A stretch of 22,705 bases of DNA from a virus. The position numbers and the translations under genes are program-made. The notes under the pieces are model-generated. The model saw nothing but the letters and a program-made list of their open reading frames with translations. It ran no database searches and had not been told where the DNA came from. The stretch lies in the IMG/VR virus record IMGVR_UViG_3300028025_004051, positions 1 through 22,705 of that record; one strand, given 5' to 3'. Positions 4,774 to 14,284 of this stretch are shown here, piece after piece (positions within the stretch are counted from its first letter, which is position 1; the number at the start of each line of letters is the position of its first letter).

Positions 4774-5006
4774 TACATTTTTTTAGGTAGGCTTTGGTCT
4801 CTGAGTTTCTTTTGCCAACGACTTTTGGCTGCTCCTGCTCTACGCTTTCGGACAGTAGTTGGCTTTTCGTAGAACATTTTGGCTCTCAGTGTTTCCAAAA
4901 TTCCAGAATCATCTACTTTTTGTTTAAATTTTCTCAGTGCTACGTTCAACGGCAGGTCGCCTACGATAACCTTATTACCCATTAGTGCTTTGTTGTTTTT
5001 GCTCAT
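4770..5006 (-). CDS. rpsU: Ribosomal protein bS21
   Basis: 78 residues. The core [18 protein letters not shown] followed by [17 protein letters not shown] matches bS21, including the diagnostic FYEKPT.RKR stretch, with a basic C-terminal helix as in bacterial bS21. In the ribosome this protein sits on the 30S platform near the 3' end of 16S rRNA, next to the anti-Shine-Dalgarno region, and affects initiation. I chose the ATG at 5006 ([10 protein letters not shown]); a TTG at 5021 and an ATG at 4982 are alternatives. It overlaps the end of clpX by about 30 bp. Phage copies of bS21 are known in several aquatic myoviruses and huge phages and are thought to replace the host protein and bias initiation. 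Confidence 0.92.
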
Positions 5007-6222
5007 TTTTCTTTTTATCAAAAATCATAATGGCTGGTTTGCCATCAACGGTATCTTTACTTATGCGAATTGACTTCAAACCGCGTTCGACGAGATCTAC
5101 AGCATCAAACTGATAGGGCATTAAGATCTTTTCGATAATGTTTTTAAGTCCGCGAGCATTGGTTTTGAGATCTTTGGCTCGTTTTGCAATTTCATGTAAG
5201 GCATCTTGATCAAAACTTAGATTAATGCCATCTAACTCAAACATATATTGATACTGCTTGATCGTGCTGTTTTTAGTATCTACGAGAATTTTTACAAGTT
5301 GATCTTCACTGAGTTCATCTACGTTAGTAATCAATCCAAAGCGACCCACGAATTCAGGAATAAGTCCAAACTTGATAAGATCCTTGGTTGTCACTTCTTG
5401 TAGCAAAGCTGGATTATCTTCTACGTTGTCTACATTAGCATGGAAGCCTACACTTCTAGCACCTGTACGTTGTTTGATAAGTTTGTCAATGCCTACAAAG
5501 GCGCCGCCGCAGATAAACAAGATACTACGAGTATCAATCTCCTGCATATCACTGCCCGGGTGTTTGCGTTTACTAGTAGACGGCACTCTCATAATGCTGC
5601 CTTCGATCATCTTTAGCAGGGCTTGTTGCACACCTTCTCCGCTGACATCTCGGGTGATACTAGCACTTTCGCCCTTACGGCTGATCTTGTCGATTTCATC
5701 AATGTAGACAATACCTCGAGCTGCTTTTTCCATATCTCCGTCTGCTTCATTGATCAAACGAGTAAGAATACTTTCTACATCATCACCGACGTAGCCTGCC
5801 TCTGTAATACCAGTAGCATCACATATAGCAAAGGGTAGATCTAGGTATTCGGCAATCTTACGTGCCATCATTGTTTTGCCACAGCCAGTAGGACCTAACA
5901 ATAATACATTGGTTTTTTCTAGCTCAATGTCTTTACTGGGATTATTAATGCGTTTAAAATGCTGGCTAACTGCCACACTTAGTGCAATCTTAGCATCATC
6001 TTGACCTATAACATAATCGTCTAGGTACTCTTTTATTTTAACGGGGTTTAGTAGTTTAAGTGTATTAGGAAAAGTTTTTACTTTTTCATCTTTGAGTATA
6101 TCAATACAAAGCTCTACACAATCATTACAAATGGCAGCGTGATCGCCGACAATTAACTTTTCCACATCCTCTTTGCTTTTGTTGCAAAAATCACACTTGT
6201 GGTCTGTTTCCGATTTTGTCAT
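4975..6222 (-). CDS. clpX: ATP-dependent protease unfoldase ClpX
   Basis: 415 residues, essentially full bacterial length. The N-terminal zinc domain has C10, C13, C32 and C35. The AAA+ core has Walker A GPTGCGKT (110-117), pore loop GYVG (143-146), Walker B IVYIDEID (171-178), the RKH loop (219-221) used in ssrA-tag recognition, and a sensor-2 region NARGLKNII. The ClpP-docking loop reads VGF at 258-260, where E. coli has IGF, so docking to a host ClpP looks possible. No clpP is in the window. It lies in an overlapping chain with an unknown gene upstream and bS21 downstream, with AAAGAG before the ATG. A complete ClpX in a phage is unusual. In the same window the tmRNA encodes a tag ending ALAA, the class of degron ClpX reads. 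Confidence 0.95.
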
Positions 6223-6604: not shown

Positions 6605-7977
6605 TATATTCTTGCTTTAACTGCCATTATATACTCTTGTGGAACATCACGCAAGGCCATACGGTTAGATTTTACAAGCTCGATGTACTCCGCAACATCT
6701 GGATGAGGAGCATCGTTATAAGGATCTGGATTAACTGCCGCACTGGTCTCAAAATATTCTTCTTTGCTGATAGCAGTTTTAGTCCAGAGATCACTTTCTT
6801 TTTGTTCTTCGTTTTGTACAAATAATGGTGTATCTGTGACAGTGGCTGTGCTGACTACATCAGATTCCTTTTCTGGGCTGTCACCCTCCGCTTTGTAGAC
6901 CATTGGCTTAAGATTTTCAAAATGCTTAAACGGTTTGTTTAGGTAGGGATGCTTATCAGCGATTGATGCATCAATAAGTTCTTCAACCTCTTCTTCGGTA
7001 TTTGGGTATGTTGTAGTAACATCAGTCTGATACATCCATCCTGTAGATACAGGATCTTTCAAAGGCTTAACATCTTCAGTTATTTCTTCTGCTGTAGGTT
7101 TTTCACCAACGTGTGCTACATAACCATCACGGAGTTCGTCTTCAAATACTTCATTAAATGCATCTGCAAACTCTTGTAGTTCACGCTCACTAGGATCTTC
7201 ACGTTCGCGGAAGTTTTGGAAACTGATTTGACTAGATAGTAACAGGATAACAGCTAATGGATCAAACACTACAATAAGGATAATGATTACCCAAGTTACT
7301 GCTTTCTCTAATAGACCTTCGTTTGTTTCACCGTAGACGAACTGTGCTATATATTTGATAGGGCCAACTTCAGCTTCTACTTTACGGACCTCTGCGGCAA
7401 TCGGAGCCCGCTCTTCGCTAAGGCTAGTAACTGTTTTCTGGTAGGTTTCGATTTCAGCAAGGAGACGCCCACGTTCCTTTTGTTGACTCCTACGGACAGC
7501 CACGGCTTTATCGGCACCTTTTTCATCTGTGCTTCGACCCATAACCTGGTCCACTGCCTCATCCATTTGTTTAAGAGCCTTGCGGTTGACATCTATATTT
7601 TCCTTGGCAATTTTAATCTTCTCATCATACACGGCAATCTTTGCCTGTACATCACCTGACACCAAACTTTGGTCACTGTGCGCCTTACTCAAGAATCCAA
7701 AGATACCCATGCTGGTAACTATCATGAGAACCATAATAGCAGTGAATAGATAGATCCGCATTGACCACGGAGCAATCTTCCAATTTTGTTTTAGCCATAG
7801 TGTGGCTGTAATTTTACCTAGGCCTAATGCTATACCCATGATAACCACAGGGATAACTGCGGCAGAGAAGATAGAAGTTAGTCCGAGAATACTGTAGTAC
7901 TCTGCAACCAGTGATAGGAACAGGCCACTGAATAATGCTAGGTAGGCGAGAAATTTTTCATTTAAAGTTGGTTTCAT
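6604..7977 (-). CDS. Four-helix membrane protein with large coiled-coil loop
   Basis: 457 residues. Three hydrophobic segments lie in the first 100 residues (about 9-30, 33-56 and 74-97), then a charged heptad-rich region (about 105-210) predicted as a coiled coil, then a fourth membrane helix (about 225-250). The last 200 residues are acidic and soluble. The layout resembles DUF4407-type phage and bacterial membrane proteins, but I cannot assign the family from sequence alone. It is probably an inner-membrane protein. The coiled coil and the tail should lie on opposite sides of the membrane only if the helix count is as read. It ends in a TAATG overlap with the next gene. No ribosome binding site precedes its ATG; a GATAAATA late-promoter-like motif ends seven bases upstream. 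Confidence 0.8.
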   Translation of the reverse strand: MKPTLNEKFLAYLALFSGLFLSLVAEYYSILGLTSIFSAAVIPVVIMGIALGLGKITATLWLKQNWKIAPWSMRIYLFTAIMVLMIVTSMGIFGFLSKAHSDQSLVSGDVQAKIAVYDEKIKIAKENIDVNRKALKQMDEAVDQVMGRSTDEKGADKAVAVRRSQQKERGRLLAEIETYQKTVTSLSEERAPIAAEVRKVEAEVGPIKYIAQFVYGETNEGLLEKAVTWVIIILIVVFDPLAVILLLSSQISFQNFREREDPSERELQEFADAFNEVFEDELRDGYVAHVGEKPTAEEITEDVKPLKDPVSTGWMYQTDVTTTYPNTEEEVEELIDASIADKHPYLNKPFKHFENLKPMVYKAEGDSPEKESDVVSTATVTDTPLFVQNEEQKESDLWTKTAISKEEYFETSAAVNPDPYNDAPHPDVAEYIELVKSNRMALRDVPQEYIMAVKARI

Positions 7978-8944: not shown

Positions 8945-9949
8945 TTATTTGACCTGCGTCCAAACACGCTCACGGATCTGTTTTGTTAGTGCATCAGGTA
9001 ATGGTACGTAGTCCAAATCTACGGCGTCTTTCTTACCATTCTTAAATGCCCAGTCAAAGAACTTAATAACTTCATCGCTGGTAGCTTTGTTTCTTGGCTC
9101 TTTGTACATGATGATGAAACTTGCCGAACTTACTGGCCAAGCATTAGGATTCTTTTGATCCACAATGCTGAGTCCCATACCGGGGACACTGAACCAATCA
9201 GCACCATCTGCGGCTGCGGCAAAGGTTAAGTCATCTGGACTAACATACTTGCCTGATTTGTTTTGTAGTTGCATAAATGTCATTTTGTTTTGTTTGACAT
9301 AGGCATACTCTACATAACCGATACTACCTTTAATTCTAGTCACATTGGCTGCAACACCTTCATTACCTTTACCACCTACTGAAGCAGACGCTGGCCACTT
9401 GACTGCGGCACCACGACCTACTTTAGCTAGCCACTCAGGACTTACTGTGCTTAGATAGTCTGTCCAATTGAATGTTGTGCCACTACCATCTGCACGATGA
9501 ATAATAGTAATTTCTAAGTTAGGTAAGTTCTTACCTGGATTCAATGCTACTAGTTTAGGATCATTCCAACGATTAATGTTGCCCAAGAATACTTCTGCTA
9601 ATACTGGACCAGTGATGCGTAGTTCTCCGGGCTTGATGCCATCTAAGTTGACAACAGGAACTGTTCCGCCGATAATAGCAGGGAATTGAATTTGTCCGTT
9701 CTTGTCTAAATCTTCACCTTTGACTGGAGCATCGGTTGCTCCAAAGTCTACTGTGCGAGCATTGATTTGTCTAATGCCGCCCGAACTACCGATACTTTGA
9801 TAGTTTAAACTTTTTCCAGTTTCTTTCTTGTATCCTTCGGCCCACTTATAATAGATAGGGAATGGGAACGTTGCTCCAGCACCCACCATGTCTGTGGCCT
9901 GTGCTGATATAGCTACTGAGGCTAATAGAATAGCAAATAGTTTTTTCAC
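8945..9949 (-). CDS. pstS: Periplasmic phosphate-binding protein PstS
   Basis: 334 residues with a signal peptide (about 1-18, cleavage near SAQA-T). The phosphate-binding signatures are present: GAGATFPFPIYYKW, IGSSGGIRQI, DFGATDAPV and RADGSGTTFNWTDYL. PstS captures inorganic phosphate in the periplasm and passes it to the PstCAB transporter; no pstC, A or B is in the window, so it must work with the host transporter. It begins with GTG, preceded by AAGGAG. A Pho-box-like repeat lies 48-65 bp upstream and a hairpin terminator follows, making it a self-contained unit. Phage pstS genes under Pho boxes are established in cyanophages. This version looks betaproteobacterial in style. The call is firm. 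Confidence 0.95.
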   Translation of the reverse strand: MKKLFAILLASVAISAQATDMVGAGATFPFPIYYKWAEGYKKETGKSLNYQSIGSSGGIRQINARTVDFGATDAPVKGEDLDKNGQIQFPAIIGGTVPVVNLDGIKPGELRITGPVLAEVFLGNINRWNDPKLVALNPGKNLPNLEITIIHRADGSGTTFNWTDYLSTVSPEWLAKVGRGAAVKWPASASVGGKGNEGVAANVTRIKGSIGYVEYAYVKQNKMTFMQLQNKSGKYVSPDDLTFAAAADGADWFSVPGMGLSIVDQKNPNAWPVSSASFIIMYKEPRNKATSDEVIKFFDWAFKNGKKDAVDLDYVPLPDALTKQIRERVWTQVK

Positions 9950-9979
9950 TTGTAAGTCTCCTTGTGTTTGTGATATTAA

Positions 9980-10014
9980 TATTTAAACACAAAATGATTA
10001 CAATATGATTACAA
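9980..10014 (-). promoter_or_regulatory. Pho-box promoter of pstS
   Basis: Minus strand reads TTGTAAT-CATA-TTGTAAT (10014-9997), a degenerate third repeat TTGTGTT (9992-9986), and TAAATA (9985-9980) exactly 11 bp after the second repeat. The 7+4 direct-repeat layout is that of PhoB binding sites, which replace the -35 box. The same arrangement recurs before the metallophosphoesterase gene. Confidence 0.78.
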
Positions 10015-10024
10015 TTTTAAGATT

Positions 10025-10747
10025 TTAATTCCAATATTTAGAACCGTCTAATCTATCCCAATATGCTTTGTTATTGCGATTGACAAAGTTTTTAATCAAG
10101 TAAGCGGCCATACCAAAGTATCCCATCTTTTTGAATCTACGACTGTCCTGCCCGAAATGGTGATTAACAAGTTTAAACTTTTTTGGACTATACATTCTCG
10201 ATAGGAAGTAGTCCTCCGATGTTGATGCTTTTTCAGGAAACCCTCCGAATTCATCGAATCGATCCTTGCGTGTTAACATAAATGCACCAACTGCAAAAGG
10301 GCTAAAGAATTTTAAAATATGATTTATAATATTAAACAGAGTAAAGCCGATCTTTGCTCTAACATCGTTGTCATAACATTTAATATTCAACCCAATGAGA
10401 TCTAAGTCTTTTGATTCCATTTCAAAGACAGCATCACGAATAACAGTGTCTTTAAAGAATCGAACATCTGCATCAATGAATAATATATAAGGAGTAGTAA
10501 CTAATCTAGCACCGTTATTCTTAGCTGTAGACACAGGTCCACCTTCTATGATTTCCACATTGAGATTGCCTTTTACAGCCTGTATTACTTCTCGAGTGTT
10601 ATCTGTTGAACAGTCTGCAATGATGATTCTAGTACTACCTATCATTTGATTGCGTAAGTGCGTTAACAGATATGGGATATAGTTTTCCTCATTTTTACAA
10701 GGAACTACAATAGTAATTTTGTCACTGAATTTCATTTCTTTATACAT
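10025..10747 (-). CDS. Family 2 glycosyltransferase, probably membrane-associated
   Basis: 240 residues. GT-A fold signatures: ITIVVPCKNEENYI (about 11-24), IIADCSTDNT (about 42-51), a metal-binding DADV (92-95) in ILFIDADVRF, and an acidic STSEDYFLSR (about 176-184) in the acceptor region. A hydrophobic stretch at about 133-160 suggests membrane contact, fitting a lipid-linked acceptor. The gene follows the metallophosphoesterase by about 20 bp in the same transcript, and pstS comes next, so expression under phosphate starvation is likely. I infer that it may glycosylate diacylglycerol released by the phosphoesterase, but many GT2 enzymes act on polyprenyl phosphate or polysaccharide and that cannot be excluded. 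The start could also be the ATG at 10735. Confidence 0.87.
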   Translation of the reverse strand: MYKEMKFSDKITIVVPCKNEENYIPYLLTHLRNQMIGSTRIIIADCSTDNTREVIQAVKGNLNVEIIEGGPVSTAKNNGARLVTTPYILFIDADVRFFKDTVIRDAVFEMESKDLDLIGLNIKCYDNDVRAKIGFTLFNIINHILKFFSPFAVGAFMLTRKDRFDEFGGFPEKASTSEDYFLSRMYSPKKFKLVNHHFGQDSRRFKKMGYFGMAAYLIKNFVNRNNKAYWDRLDGSKYWN

Positions 10748-10768
10748 TCTCCCTCAACTTTAAATTGA

Positions 10769-11650
10769 TTAAACTTTAGTTGATACGACATTGTCTTCAG
10801 GACTGATTCGCACGATTTCTGATCCGGGAATATCAGTGTTATTCTTCCTGGAATGTCGTTTGGATTGCTTGAATGAATCGCTAACAATAACATTATCCAC
10901 ATCGTCCTTCTCCTTGGTCCAGGTAACTATTTCCCAACGACCATCCCAATGTTCTACGAGAGCTGTACAGCTTTCGACCCAGTCGCCGTCATTCATATAC
11001 ATTACACCATCTATTTCTTTAATCTCTGCGTGATGTATGTGTCCACATATAACTCCATCAAAGCCGCGCTTCTTGCAATAGCCTGCTAGATTGTTCTCAA
11101 ACTTGAACATAAAATCCACAGCCTTCTTTACACGATGTTTAAGATATTTGCTCAGTGACCAATATCCAAATCCCATCTTATGACGTAGCCAGTTAAACTT
11201 GCCGTTTAGATATAGAATAAAGTCGTAGGCCTTGTCACCTAAAAATCCCAACCAAGGTGCTAGGCGTGTGATACCATCAAACAAGTCGCCGTGTGTAACT
11301 AGATAGTGCTTACCATCTGCACCTATATGTTCTATTTGATTATGTATCTCAACATGACCAAAACTAAAACCATAGGGTATCATTGGTCTTAGAAATTCAT
11401 CGTGATTACCTGCTATGAATATAACCCGGGTCCCACGCTTGGCATGTCCTAGTACACGACGGACTACATTGGTATGACTCTGCTTCCATCGCCATTTGTT
11501 TTGTTGTATCTTCCAGGCATCAATGATATCGCCTACAAGATAAAGTGTATCGCAGGAGTTATGTTTAAGAAAGTTGTTTAATTTATCCGCTTGACTGTCT
11601 TTGGTTCCGAGATGCACATCACTGACAAAGATTGAGCGGTATGTCTTCAT
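10769..11650 (-). CDS. LpxH/PlcP-type metallophosphoesterase
   Basis: 293 residues of the calcineurin-like superfamily. Metal ligands are visible: D11 and H13 (SDVHLG), D41 (GDIID), N82 and H83 (GNHDE), H120 (THGD) and H204/H206 (GHIHH). WSLSKYLKHRVKKAV and NDGDWVESCTALVEH place it in the COG2908 branch usually labelled UDP-2,3-diacylglucosamine diphosphatase. That branch includes PlcP, the phosphate-starvation phospholipase C of Sinorhizobium and SAR11, which cuts phospholipids to diacylglycerol. The Pho-box promoter, the glycosyltransferase downstream and pstS next in line favour the PlcP role over lipid A synthesis. There is no clear ribosome binding site, and the promoter -10 lies so close to the ATG that the message may be leaderless. 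Fold is certain; substrate is inferred. Confidence 0.88.
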   Translation of the reverse strand: MKTYRSIFVSDVHLGTKDSQADKLNNFLKHNSCDTLYLVGDIIDAWKIQQNKWRWKQSHTNVVRRVLGHAKRGTRVIFIAGNHDEFLRPMIPYGFSFGHVEIHNQIEHIGADGKHYLVTHGDLFDGITRLAPWLGFLGDKAYDFILYLNGKFNWLRHKMGFGYWSLSKYLKHRVKKAVDFMFKFENNLAGYCKKRGFDGVICGHIHHAEIKEIDGVMYMNDGDWVESCTALVEHWDGRWEIVTWTKEKDDVDNVIVSDSFKQSKRHSRKNNTDIPGSEIVRISPEDNVVSTKV

Positions 11651-11692: not shown

Positions 11693-11719
11693 CCAAAAGA
11701 AAACCCGCCGAAGCGGGTT
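11693..11719 (-). terminator. Intrinsic terminator after porin
   Basis: Minus-strand AACCCGC-TTCG-GCGGGTT hairpin followed by TTCTTTT. Its 3' half shares GGGTTTTCTTTTGG with the terminator after pstS. Confidence 0.82.
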
Positions 11720-11737
11720 AATTCTATCTAATTAAAA

Positions 11738-12646
11738 TTAGAAACTGTGGACTAAACCAACACCATATTGTCTAACATCGTTGGCTGTACCACCGGCATC
11801 AACATTACGATAGGCAACCAATGCACTGGTACGCTTGCTGAAAGCGTAGTTAACACCTAGGTTATAGGCTTTAACTTCACTAATAGACAAACCAGTCTTA
11901 GTACCGTAGCTACCTCTAAGGGTAACTGGGGTTCCGTGTACAGGAACAGTAGCACCGTATAAACGACCTTTGGTCTCAACTACGCCAGTCTTGTCTTCAC
12001 TTTGAATTGTAGACAATGTAACACCTGCTACTTGACCACTAAGGGTTACTAGATTAGTATAATCAGTGCCTGACTCGAAACGAGCAATGGCTGCTGTAAC
12101 TGGACCTGCCTTACCACCGAGGCTCCAAGAAATTGCTTCAGCAGTTGTTGGGTTGGTGTACATACTACGATCATAGTTAGCGATCACTGGACCTACTTTT
12201 GTTCCAAAGAATACGCTGTCACCCATGCGTCTAGAACGATCATTGATAACATCTGGTGAAACAGATGCGTATGTTGCACCACCGAATGAATCAGCGGCTT
12301 TTATAGTAAGGAACGCACTGTGCTCTTTGCGGCCTAGGTCAATGCTGGCAAACTTAGAACCAAGACCTACAGTAGCTTGACGATCGCCAAGTTGTGTAGA
12401 TGCGCCTGCTTTTGGATCATCCAACGCAACAGTAGTGTCAACGACCACTCTAGTAGATAAACCACCGTTGAGCTTCTCTTCAGCTCTGAAAACAATGCGG
12501 CTTGAGTCATTCACTAAAGAAGTAACTTCGGTACTACCTGTTTTTGTGCTGTCAACAAACGTGGCAATTCTACCACTGACAGTAACTTGAGCAGAGGCTG
12601 CAATCGCGGAGACCGCTAATACAGTTGCTAATACAATTTTCTTCAT
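11738..12646 (-). CDS. Outer-membrane porin, Burkholderiales type
   Basis: 302 residues. A signal peptide (MKKIVLATVLAVSAIAASA, then QVTVSGRI) leads into a beta-barrel of alternating strands: SSRIVFRAEEKLNGG, RQATVGLG and FASIDLGR are typical of the Gram-negative porin family of Burkholderiales. It ends in YGVGLVHSF, with the C-terminal Phe needed for Bam-dependent insertion. It is shorter than the usual 340-400 residue host porins, perhaps from shortened loops. It has its own promoter, ribosome binding site (AAAGGAAA) and terminator. Possible roles are replacing host porins to alter nutrient entry, or blocking superinfection as the porin of lambdoid phage PA-2 does. A phage-borne porin next to a phosphate cassette suggests anion uptake, but pore selectivity cannot be read from sequence. 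Confidence 0.9.
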   Translation of the reverse strand: MKKIVLATVLAVSAIAASAQVTVSGRIATFVDSTKTGSTEVTSLVNDSSRIVFRAEEKLNGGLSTRVVVDTTVALDDPKAGASTQLGDRQATVGLGSKFASIDLGRKEHSAFLTIKAADSFGGATYASVSPDVINDRSRRMGDSVFFGTKVGPVIANYDRSMYTNPTTAEAISWSLGGKAGPVTAAIARFESGTDYTNLVTLSGQVAGVTLSTIQSEDKTGVVETKGRLYGATVPVHGTPVTLRGSYGTKTGLSISEVKAYNLGVNYAFSKRTSALVAYRNVDAGGTANDVRQYGVGLVHSF

Positions 12647-12664
12647 TTTTAATTTCCTTTAAAA

Positions 12665-12684
12665 CATGATCTTAAATGATCATG
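12665..12684. promoter_or_regulatory. Inverted repeat in the porin leader
   Basis: CATGATC, a six-base loop and GATCATG form a perfect 7-bp inverted repeat between the porin promoter and its ribosome binding site. It could be an operator or an mRNA stem. No T-run follows, so it is not a terminator. Confidence 0.45.
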
Positions 12685-12688
12685 AACT

Positions 12689-12717
12689 ATTATTTACTCT
12701 TCAGCTACAAAGGTCAA
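12689..12717 (-). promoter_or_regulatory. Sigma70 promoter of the porin gene
   Basis: TTGACC (12717-12712), 17-bp spacer, AATAAT (12694-12689), directly downstream of the tmRNA terminator. No Pho-box repeat is seen here. Confidence 0.68.
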
Positions 12718-12718
12718 G

Positions 12719-12745
12719 AAAAAAGGCTACCTAAGTAGCCTTTTT
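12719..12745 (-). terminator. Intrinsic terminator after the tmRNA gene
   Basis: Minus-strand AAAAGGCTAC-TTAG-GTAGCCTTTT, a perfect 10-bp stem, followed by further T residues. Confidence 0.85.
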
Positions 12746-13080
12746 GGTGGTTTCTGTTACGAGGTATTTCCTACCCTAAGCCGAGTTTAGGCGGCTAAAG
12801 CGAACTGTTCGTCGTTTGCATTTACGTTTTTTGCTTCTTCGGCCGAGTTCCCCCAACCCTAACGGCTTCTACATTGCCGGACTGTCCATTTCAATACTTG
12901 TGACCCTGTCGAAACCATGGCAGGCCCATCAGAAGTAGTTTATGTTTGTCAATCTAGATATTTAAAAAGGGCATATTCGAATTAGCCTCTAGCATCCTCG
13001 GAAGGGACAAATCTAACTGTGTTCAAAACTACTTTTGGTGGACCTGGCGGGAGTCGAACCCGCGTCCAGAATCCTTTTCT
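12746..13080 (-). ncRNA. ssrA: Permuted two-piece tmRNA
   Basis: The 3' acceptor piece comes first (about 13080-13036), with T-arm GCGGG-TTCGACT-CCCGC and an encoded CCA ending at 13036. The coding piece starts at 12927 with GGGCCUG. GGGCCUG pairs with CAGGUCC as a 7-bp acceptor stem whose third pair is G-U, the alanine identity element. CAGGGUC of the coding piece pairs with GAUUCUG of the acceptor piece to form helix P2. A 108-base intervening segment (13035-12928) separates the pieces; AAGUAGUUU at its start pairs perfectly with AAACUACUU near its end, which would hold the precursor together for processing. The tag frame follows, then pseudoknot-like sequence and a terminator. Permuted tmRNAs are known in alphaproteobacteria, cyanobacteria and a betaproteobacterial group. 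The role is rescue of stalled ribosomes and tagging of the unfinished peptide. Confidence 0.93.
12787..12819 (-). other. tmRNA tag reading frame ANDEQFALAA
   Basis: GCA resume codon at 12819, then nine codons and TAA. The encoded peptide ANDEQFALAA closely resembles betaproteobacterial tags such as ANDERFALAA and ends in the ALAA degron read by ClpX and ClpA. Confidence 0.93.
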
Positions 13081-13108
13081 GTCTACTTCATACAGTCTTA
13101 ACTTTTAT

Positions 13109-13435
13109 TTACACTCTAAAACTTTCGCCACAACCACATTTATCACGTTCATTGGGATTACGAAATTCAAACCCTTCATTGAGTCCATTACGAGCCCAAT
13201 CAACTATGAGTCCTTGTAGGTATACCAATGACTTTGCATCAACTAGTACTACAAAATCTGGTTGAGCAAAATTAGTTACCCCCTCTTCAGCAATGTAACT
13301 ATCAACATATTCTAACGTATAAGCAAGGCCGCTACAACCTGTAGTTTTTACACCTAGCCGTATACCAATACCCTTGCCACGTTTGGACAGGAGCTGAGTG
13401 ATTTTCTTATTGGCTGTGTCGGTTACGGTAATCAT
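13109..13435 (-). CDS. iscA: A-type iron-sulfur carrier (IscA/ErpA/HesB)
   Basis: 108 residues. The three family cysteines are present: one in TTGCSGLAY (about C34) and two in the CGCGESF motif near the C-terminus. Length and layout match bacterial IscA and ErpA. The protein receives Fe-S clusters or iron and delivers clusters to apoproteins in the cytoplasm. Its ATG overlaps the end of iscU by 29 bp, so the two are co-translated. Host isc genes such as iscS, hscAB and fdx are absent from the window, so the phage pair must plug into the host machinery. Clients in the window are not obvious. IscA versus ErpA cannot be settled by eye. Confidence 0.92.
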   Translation of the reverse strand: MITVTDTANKKITQLLSKRGKGIGIRLGVKTTGCSGLAYTLEYVDSYIAEEGVTNFAQPDFVVLVDAKSLVYLQGLIVDWARNGLNEGFEFRNPNERDKCGCGESFRV

Positions 13436-13793
13436 TTACGGCCGCTTTAATAGCATCTTCTGCTAGAATACTACAATGTATCTTTACCGGGGGAAGGGCC
13501 AGTTCTTCGGCAATTTCGGAGTTTTTGATTGATCCTGCTTCGTCGAGTGTTTTTCCTTTGACCCATTCGGTAATGAGACTCGAGCTCGCGATAGCCGATC
13601 CACAGCCATACGTTTTAAATTTTGCATCTGTAATAATACCTGTATCATTGTCAACCTTTATCTGTAACTTCATTACATCGCCGCAAGCAGGTGCGCCAAC
13701 CATACCAGTACCAACATTAGGATCACTCTTGTCAAAAGATCCGACATTCCTGGGATTTTCATAGTGGTCAACAACTTTATCTGAATAGGCCAT
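13407..13793 (-). CDS. iscU: Iron-sulfur scaffold IscU
   Basis: 128 residues, full length. Cluster ligands are all present: the cysteine in APACGDVMKL (C37), the cysteine in KTYGCGSAIASSS, and the His-Cys pair in LPPVKIHCSILAEDAI. The LPPVK segment is the HscA chaperone recognition motif, so the phage protein should still interact with the host HscA/HscB. IscU assembles new [2Fe-2S] clusters using sulfur from IscS. Its ATG overlaps the stop of the His-rich secreted protein (TAATG) with no independent ribosome binding site, indicating coupling. With all catalytic residues intact this is presumably active rather than an inhibitor. Confidence 0.94.
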   Translation of the reverse strand: MAYSDKVVDHYENPRNVGSFDKSDPNVGTGMVGAPACGDVMKLQIKVDNDTGIITDAKFKTYGCGSAIASSSLITEWVKGKTLDEAGSIKNSEIAEELALPPVKIHCSILAEDAIKAAVNDYRNRHSQ

Positions 13794-14143
13794 TATTTAC
13801 ATTCAATATAGGTAGCCTGGACGAATTGTCCATATTGATTTTTAACCCATCCAAAGTTTTCAAATGGATATGTTCCCTGGGGGCATTGTATAATTGGGGA
13901 ACCTTGAGCAATTGGCGGTTGAACAACAACGGTAGGAGCCTCTGCAGGCTTATTGTTATTTGCAATGGCCGCACCTACAACTCCACCAATAATCAACGGA
14001 ACAAATACCTGTCCCCAATTACCACCATGATGATGAATTACTCGTGGACCGTGATGTCCGTGGTGGCCAAAATGTCTATGCTGAGCTGATGCTGTGCCAA
14101 CAAGGGCGGTAGCCAAAACAACTGCGGTCAATAATTTTTTCAT
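13793..14143 (-). CDS. Secreted histidine-rich protein
   Basis: 116 residues from the ATG at 14143, chosen because GGAG sits six bases upstream; an ATG at 14155 is an alternative. A clear signal peptide (MKKLLTAVVLATALVGTASA) is followed by a cluster of about eleven His between residues 21 and 45 (HRHFGHHGHHG and IHHHGG), a glycine-zipper-like hydrophobic stretch LIIGGVVGAAIA, a proline-rich linker and a C-terminal domain with two Cys (CPQGTYPFE and YIEC) that may form a disulfide. It probably binds a transition metal in the periplasm. Direct coupling to iscU suggests iron handling, but the metal and function are inferred. No family recognised. Confidence 0.78.
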   Translation of the reverse strand: MKKLLTAVVLATALVGTASAQHRHFGHHGHHGPRVIHHHGGNWGQVFVPLIIGGVVGAAIANNNKPAEAPTVVVQPPIAQGSPIIQCPQGTYPFENFGWVKNQYGQFVQATYIECK

Positions 14144-14199
14144 AACTTTCTCCATGATGTATATATAACGCCTTAGCCTTATAATACGTTGACAAAATT

Positions 14200-14269
14200 G
14201 GCAGACTTCCCAGGGCGTGTGGAGCCTCTGCCGAGCCTTGTGTCCCCTTGCTATGCAAGTTCGCCCCTG
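14200..14269 (-). promoter_or_regulatory. Possible structured RNA leader with pseudoknot
   Basis: Between the 48-residue gene and the His-rich protein, the minus strand holds CAGGGGCG (14269-14262), a CTTGC-ATA-GCAAG hairpin (14259-14247), GGCAGA (14232-14227), CGCCCTG (14217-14211) and TCTGCC (14205-14200). The first pairs with the fourth (one bulge) and the third with the fifth, an interleaved pseudoknot. It is GC-rich in AT-rich surroundings and has no terminator T-run. It could be a cis-regulator of the His-rich protein, iscU and iscA genes, or a separate RNA. I match it to no known riboswitch. Confidence 0.4.
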
Positions 14270-14284
14270 CGAAAGCATATATAT

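Follow-up and report, generated by a model that had tools for sequence, protein, structure and literature searches.

The 22,705-nucleotide stretch of viral DNA analysed here (IMG/VR record IMGVR_UViG_3300028025_004051, positions 1 to 22,705; the window), from a freshwater phage, carries a complete porin gene. It belongs to a phage-only family whose members have shortened outer loops and are often found next to genes for nutrient import, an arrangement suggesting that phages remodel the host surface for their own nutrition. The explanation that we favour, with moderate confidence, is that the gene is a mobile single-gene module whose product is a loop-trimmed, anion-preferring pore of the Omp32 type, raising nutrient influx in the infected cell and possibly hiding it from rival phages. 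The features of the window on which the argument draws are as follows.

8945–9949, minus strand: PstS, periplasmic phosphate-binding protein.
10025–10747, minus strand: family 2 glycosyltransferase.
10769–11650, minus strand: metallophosphatase, possibly a PlcP-type phospholipase C, downstream of the porin.
11702–11719, minus strand: terminator hairpin 3′ of the porin, of the type found after the tmRNA in L081, L082 and L009.
11719–12750, minus strand: porin unit of ~1.03 kb, missing as a block from L081 and L082.
11738–12646, minus strand: porin coding sequence, 302 residues, predicted 16-strand barrel of the Omp32/PorB type (open reading frame, Pfam and model).
12590–12646, minus strand: signal-peptide codons 1–19, with probable cleavage after A19.
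12654–12660, minus strand: ribosome-binding site AAAGGAA, read from the sequence.
12665–12684, minus strand: 5′ untranslated hairpin with a 7-bp stem and a 6-nt loop, between promoter and ribosome-binding site.
12689–12717, minus strand: sigma-70-like promoter TTGACC-17-AATAAT, by consensus, conserved in L008.
12720–12745, minus strand (listed for the plus strand): terminator-like hairpin between the tmRNA and the porin promoter.
12696–13128, minus strand: permuted beta-proteobacterial-type tmRNA with the tag ANDEQFALAA, upstream of the porin, matching the beta-proteobacterial Rfam family.

The porin reading frame starts with ATG, is complete and encodes 302 residues that match Pfam Porin_4 at 5.6e-24 (85.9 bits against a cut-off of 27), with an additional Porin_1 match at the C-terminus. 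Across an alignment of 47 phage porins, M1, A19, Q20 and F302 are invariant, and by inspection the A19/Q20 and F302 pattern is as expected of a signal-peptidase site and the porin C-terminal signal; the signal peptide was assigned by alignment and inspection alone, and 283 residues are left after A19. The GC content of the gene is 0.449, compared with 0.401 for the window, and its third-position GC of 0.310 falls inside the range of the window's other genes. All ten porin pairs tested gave a dN/dS of 0.12–0.27, indicating that the protein is under purifying selection. The original prediction of a complete porin with a signal peptide, a terminal phenylalanine, its own promoter and its own terminator is confirmed by the Porin_4 match, the invariant A19, Q20 and F302, the TTGACC-17-AATAAT site and the 3′ hairpin, as is the placement of the gene between the tmRNA (12696–13128) and a phosphate cassette, namely the phosphatase–glycosyltransferase–PstS group (8945–11650).

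The decisive evidence for a stand-alone unit is an empty site in two close relatives, L081 and L082. In both, alignment to the window extends across the tmRNA up to position 12751, breaks off for 8 nt and picks up again at 11718; they keep the tmRNA and the downstream genes, with a phosphatase 91% identical to that of the window, and are without exactly the porin unit, which comprises the second terminator, the promoter, the leader and the reading frame. The terminator type 3′ of the window porin is the one that follows the tmRNA in L081, L082 and L009, so the porin unit sits between the tmRNA and the tmRNA's original terminator, or was lost there. Absence as a unit from a close relative is a mark of an autonomous accessory gene (moron), and L081 and L082 display it; the gene also appears to possess the promoter and terminator of its own that a moron should have, as judged by consensus and conservation. 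In other phages the porin has different neighbours and lies at many genome positions. The claim that the gene is phage-borne and stand-alone is thus well supported, by 65 viral loci, a single copy in 20 of 20 records and its precise absence from close relatives.

Within the unit, leader and body have been exchanged separately. In a fixed-window DNA comparison, L024 and L050 share 97–98% of their DNA from −150 to +60 but 72–82% across the porin body, and conversely L006 and L050 share 87–93% of the body and only 62–65% of the leader and signal peptide. A different gene follows the window's leader (82% over 51 nt) and a similar signal peptide in L085 and L086. Shared leaders in front of different bodies indicate that the leader with its signal peptide behaves as a module. 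The gene under the window-type leader in L085 (7797–8246, plus strand; L086 also carries the arrangement) encodes a putative barrel of 149 residues in L085 that matches the C-terminal half of Porin_4; we rejected this half-porin as a relative of the porin body, as its signal peptide alone aligns with the porin profile.

A promoter scan of the region by itself was at chance level (9 found, 9.2 expected). The promoter-like site of the window porin nevertheless recurs in the relative L008, and sites scoring at least 10/12 were present in 23 of 46 porin leaders, compared with 72 of 574 other reading frames of the same loci. Most porin leaders have a hairpin that separates promoter and ribosome-binding site. 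Leader structure showed a similar difference, with a mean z of −1.72 in 45 porin leaders against −0.39 in the 574 other frames, and a hairpin at z < −1.5 in 27/45 against 97/574; the stretch from −110 to −69 is structured too (mean z −1.33; 19/45), so the 5′ hairpin signal is not specific to one position, and structure further upstream is expected beside terminators. The T4-type late promoter motif TATAAATA precedes the porins of some relatives, but the window has no excess of it (1 match, 2.06 expected), and sigma-70 is the better fit to the window site; we therefore do not claim late expression. Phage PA-2 is a temperate enterobacterial lambdoid phage with an OmpC-like porin, and the phage porin transcript with ipeX is linked to it. 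PMC12197685 describes ipeX, borne on a phage porin transcript, as acting on host OmpC. In the window, 18 nt separate the porin stop codon from the terminator, too few to accommodate a 3′ RNA like ipeX, and a PA-2-type 3′ regulatory RNA against host porins was rejected on account of this gap.

The porin belongs to a sizeable viral family. Scanning viral contigs with the window protein alone gave 6 loci, and rescanning with an alignment of these returned 65, a set that overlaps the first; the window and these loci make 66 reading frames, which after removal of a 135-residue fragment (L068) represent 54 distinct sequences, 47 of them below 95% mutual identity, and all 47 match Porin_4 at E 0.001. 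The L002 porin is identical to that of the window, each of the 20 virus records searched holds exactly one copy, and the longest of the contigs measures 364 kb. Of 17 virus records searched for the T4 capsid family gp23, 6 contain a match that exceeds its cut-off, and three plasmids contain none. A search of 50,697 phage records (INPHARED) with two different porins found no relative, and neither did two genome_contigs scans, whose 336 and 15 pattern matches included none; the scans rely on short peptide patterns and so exclude close copies only. In PHROGs, one of the 47 phage porins matches one unnamed family, weakly. The possibility raised beforehand that the gene might be identical to a host gene, or missing from related phages, was not realised: those two pattern-limited scans returned no host copy, and related phages carry the gene.

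Plasmid records yielded mostly Burkholderiales porins, with ~24–39% identity to the phage porin. In a tree of the 47 non-redundant phage porins and 11 plasmid-borne beta-proteobacterial porins, the phage sequences form one clade with support of 100/99; freshwater host porins are absent from this tree and long branches were flagged in it, so the separation is from these plasmid-borne porins and not necessarily from the true donor. The separate clade at this level of identity, together with the phage-like third-position GC, indicates that the porin is not a recent host gene. "Burkholderiales porin", as the gene had been called, is a label to be corrected: in fold the protein is of the Omp32/PorB type, but in sequence it stands in a phage clade apart from the plasmid-borne cellular porins. 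The accompanying statement that it is shorter than host porins holds for the comparison set used, phage porins having 285–312 residues and all 11 plasmid-borne beta-proteobacterial porins 337–407, a few of whose annotated starts look doubtful.

An AlphaFold2 monomer model of the window porin, built on the 47-sequence alignment (mean pLDDT 90.5, pTM 0.83), has 17 strand elements, which we read as 16 barrel strands and an extension of the L1 hairpin, and an inward constriction loop L3 with a helix at residues 109–139. The best solved match is Omp32 with malate (Z 31.2, 1.8 Å over 277 residues), followed by Omp32 alone (Z 31.0) and then BpsOmp38 and PorB, with Z of 25–31 to solved porins. With its family match, modelled barrel and L3, signal peptide and C-terminal phenylalanine, the protein has the features of a 16-strand general porin (Porin_4). 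Loop lengths, measured on an alignment of the phage porins with the 11 bacterial porins, answer the question of which loops are shortened: the outer loops L5–L8 are cut back, with 2 (2–4) residues in L5 of the phage porins against 8–31 in the bacterial ones, 2 (2–5) against 2–32 in L6, 2 (2–17) against 7–21 in L7 and 7 (4–16) against 9–28 in L8. L4 is not shorter (7 versus 4), and the turns and L2 are alike in both sets.

In the constriction, D88, R89, R106, D119 and R140 are invariant in all 47 phage porins, and the position of D70 is acidic in all of them. The anion selectivity of Omp32 is set by its arginines R38, R75 and R133. R89 and R140 align with Omp32 R75 and R133, and R50 of the window porin aligns with R38, a position held by Arg in 14 of the 47 phage porins and by Asn in 26; the net charge is not different from that of cellular porins (median +4 versus +5). 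The phage porin is thus like the anion-selective Omp32 of Comamonas (Delftia) acidovorans (PDB 1e54, 2fgq) in its predicted fold and in two of three constriction arginines, and unlike it in sequence (~20% identity), in size (283 residues after A19 against ~330), in its trimmed L5–L8 and in the third arginine, which is not conserved, its own selectivity being a prediction.

Genes around 52 porin loci were clustered, of which 51 were readable (L017 was left out). Recurring importer genes near the porin, named by Pfam matches of representatives, encode TctC, DctP, a family 3 binding protein, a sodium:dicarboxylate symporter and a PstS-like protein, for the most part importers of anionic nutrients, and an Asp/Glu racemase, likewise named from a representative, is also recurrent. 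At least one importer gene lies within five reading frames of the porin in 12 of the 51 readable loci, and none in the other 39. With distance cut-offs that were set after the data were seen, 12 of 18 importer genes were no more than 6.5 kb from the porin, where random porin positions would give 2.7 (five importer families searched in 19 records; G016, a near-copy of G015, was dropped), and at the level of contigs of at least 50 kb, each counted once and with one of the related records G007, G009 and G010, 4 of 7 contigs with an importer gene had one within 3 kb of the porin (P 0.0005), the clustering giving P values of 0.002 at 5 kb, 0.006 at 6.5 kb and 0.025 at 10 kb. Among the 11 plasmid-borne porins, six have a transporter gene as immediate neighbour or at a distance of one gene, and one lies between phosphatases, so the phage arrangement mirrors a cellular habit. 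The earlier idea that the porin increases nutrient influx gains independent support from this clustering, for what is still a putative function; the companion idea, that it removes receptors for rival phages, draws only circumstantial support from the trimmed outer loops.

The neighbourhoods vary in composition. In L016, L018 and L025, genes for a family 3 binding protein, a sodium:dicarboxylate symporter, a protein of unknown type and an Asp/Glu racemase come before the porin, with members varying by locus; TctC-type and some DctP-type binding proteins occur on the phage contigs L021, L024, L035, L042, L043, L044, L058 and L067, several of them adjoining the porin. In L049 a DNA/RNA non-specific endonuclease with a signal-like N-terminus (7150–7929, plus strand) directly precedes it.

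In the window itself, the phosphatase–glycosyltransferase–PstS group would free and capture phosphate. The phosphatase (10769–11650) is possibly a PlcP-type phospholipase C, and shares 46–55% identity with LpxH-annotated proteins from Sinorhizobium and Pseudomonas plasmid records; LpxH itself, a lipid A gene, was rejected because the protein is below the NCBIfam cut-offs (45.8 versus 134 and 34.2 versus 190.35 bits). PMC4796936 and PMC8528852 describe PlcP–Agt lipid remodelling, in which phospholipase C is paired with a glycosyltransferase under phosphate stress. The window's metallophosphatase followed by a glycosyltransferase near PstS is like this system, a likeness that concerns the porin's neighbour, and differs from it in that the glycosyltransferase is of family 2 and the phage phosphatase putative. 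The phosphatase family is present in at least 599 viral loci; among the best 80 of these, the next gene, where there is one, is a glycosyltransferase of one of two clusters in 78 of 78 cases (the second cluster was identified from one member), and only 5 of the 80 carry a porin. In Pelagibacter phage Mosig, a phosphatase homologue adjoins a phosphate-transporter gene. The phosphatase (window 10769–11650, minus strand; L080–L159) and the glycosyltransferase are perhaps a widespread phage lipid-remodelling pair.

In the course of events that we propose, the porin would be expressed from its own promoter, its mRNA perhaps steadied by the 5′ hairpin, and its signal peptide would direct export to the outer membrane of the infected cell, where, as its family suggests, it may insert as a trimer. 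A preference for small anions should follow, because the constriction keeps the invariant arginine pair. Through such a pore more phosphate and more organic acids would diffuse into the periplasm, for capture by phage-encoded binding proteins such as PstS and use in DNA synthesis, and the trimmed loops may, secondarily, let permeability be gained without new docking sites for rival phages. Against this stand the 39 of 51 loci without a nearby importer, the mostly porin-less phosphatase loci, the equivalent of R38 being mostly Asn, and the unchanged charge. We put forward more tentatively, as a possibility with the balance against it, that large freshwater phages encode a whole envelope import line, consisting of a "stealth" porin, periplasmic binding proteins for phosphate, organic acids and amino acids, an inner-membrane dicarboxylate symporter and a lipid-phosphate salvage pair; the porin would here be a plug-in leader (promoter, hairpin and signal peptide) with barrel bodies swapped by recombination, retuning entry without giving rivals a receptor.

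The loop trimming also admits an explanation in which the main job of the porin is surface change: it would replace or dilute the host's loop-bearing porins, so that neither rivals nor the offspring of the phage itself could still adsorb to the infected cell or to what is left of it, and nutrient flow would only be kept up. The shortness of L5–L8 across the family agrees with this, as does the exchange of porin bodies under one leader (L024/L050, with L006/L050 as the converse), and phage porin transcripts, according to PMC12197685, yield ipeX, which controls OmpC production. We nonetheless consider it unlikely, since it does not predict the clustering of importers, no host-porin repressor was found, 18 nt leave no space for an ipeX-like 3′ RNA and short loops could be plain economy. 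There is a slight chance that the gene is instead a general envelope module without a specific substrate, a leader cassette that delivers any small barrel able to maintain the permeability or stability of the infected cell when infection is long. Porins occupy many genome positions, and L085 and L086 have another barrel behind this leader, that of L085 having 149 residues and only the signal peptide in common with the porin profile; however, the invariant constriction residues and the clustering of importers imply a selective pore.

That host DNA was wrongly binned or joined in viral contigs might be supposed because porins are normally cellular and IMG/VR contigs are metagenomic. This is largely refuted already, and we give it a negligible probability: there are 65 loci, the phage porins form a clade apart from cellular ones, gp23 is present in 6 of 17 virus records, the third-position GC is phage-like and the flanks are syntenic with porin-less phage relatives. 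A recent host gene or an assembly junction was rejected on the same loci, clade, GC and porin-less syntenic relatives, together with the single copy per record.

To our knowledge, the auxiliary genes that have been studied in phages work mostly within the cell; a porin clade that is widespread and confined to phages would mean that phages also manage the outer membrane. If the porin is a loop-trimmed nutrient pore, as we favour, nutrient supply during infection would be tied to which surface proteins rival phages can use, and the loop trimming poses the direct question of whether a loopless porin feeds the cell yet resists adsorption.

Phage porins as such are already known, from PA-2, from viral ompL and from OmpC-named entries. 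PA-2 shares with our phages a porin on the phage genome, but the phages described here are large and in part T4-like, their porin belongs to the Omp32/PorB type and there is no space for a 3′ RNA. PMC8115048 reports a glnK-amtB-ompL cassette of oxygen-minimum-zone viruses, with the viral porin gene directly beside an ammonium importer and acquired with its neighbours from Flavobacteriales; a porin beside a nutrient importer is common to both cases, whereas ours is one phage clade with changing neighbours. The "OmpC porin" entries of uncultured Caudovirales phages (A0A6J5L4P1, A0A6J5LP82), known by database name, have a related predicted fold at 14–18% identity. In the open-licence literature searched, we found neither this porin clade nor its loop trimming or association with binding proteins described; the word "porin" is absent from the main text of PMC6802176 and PMC7674155, and PMC13282480 has it only in another sense.

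Some further genes of the window and its relatives deserve mention. Permuted tmRNA genes are present in the window and in L002, L003, L004, L088, L092, L094, L107, L126, L132, L144, L151–L153 and L159, and the ARAGORN tag reading is unusually long (20-plus residues) in L107, L126, L144, L151–L153 and L159; by the type of its tmRNA only, the host of the window phage is probably beta-proteobacterial. Adjoining the tmRNA, 13109–13793 (minus strand) encodes IscU, above cut-off, and an IscA-like protein, and in L081 an IscU homologue lies between ribonucleotide reductase genes instead. His-rich small proteins with signal-like N-termini occur in the window (13793–14278, minus strand), L042 (5303–5680), L009 and L045, those of the window and L042 having no match in Pfam. 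At 4975–6222 (minus strand) the window also encodes a full-length ClpX, well above its curated cut-off.
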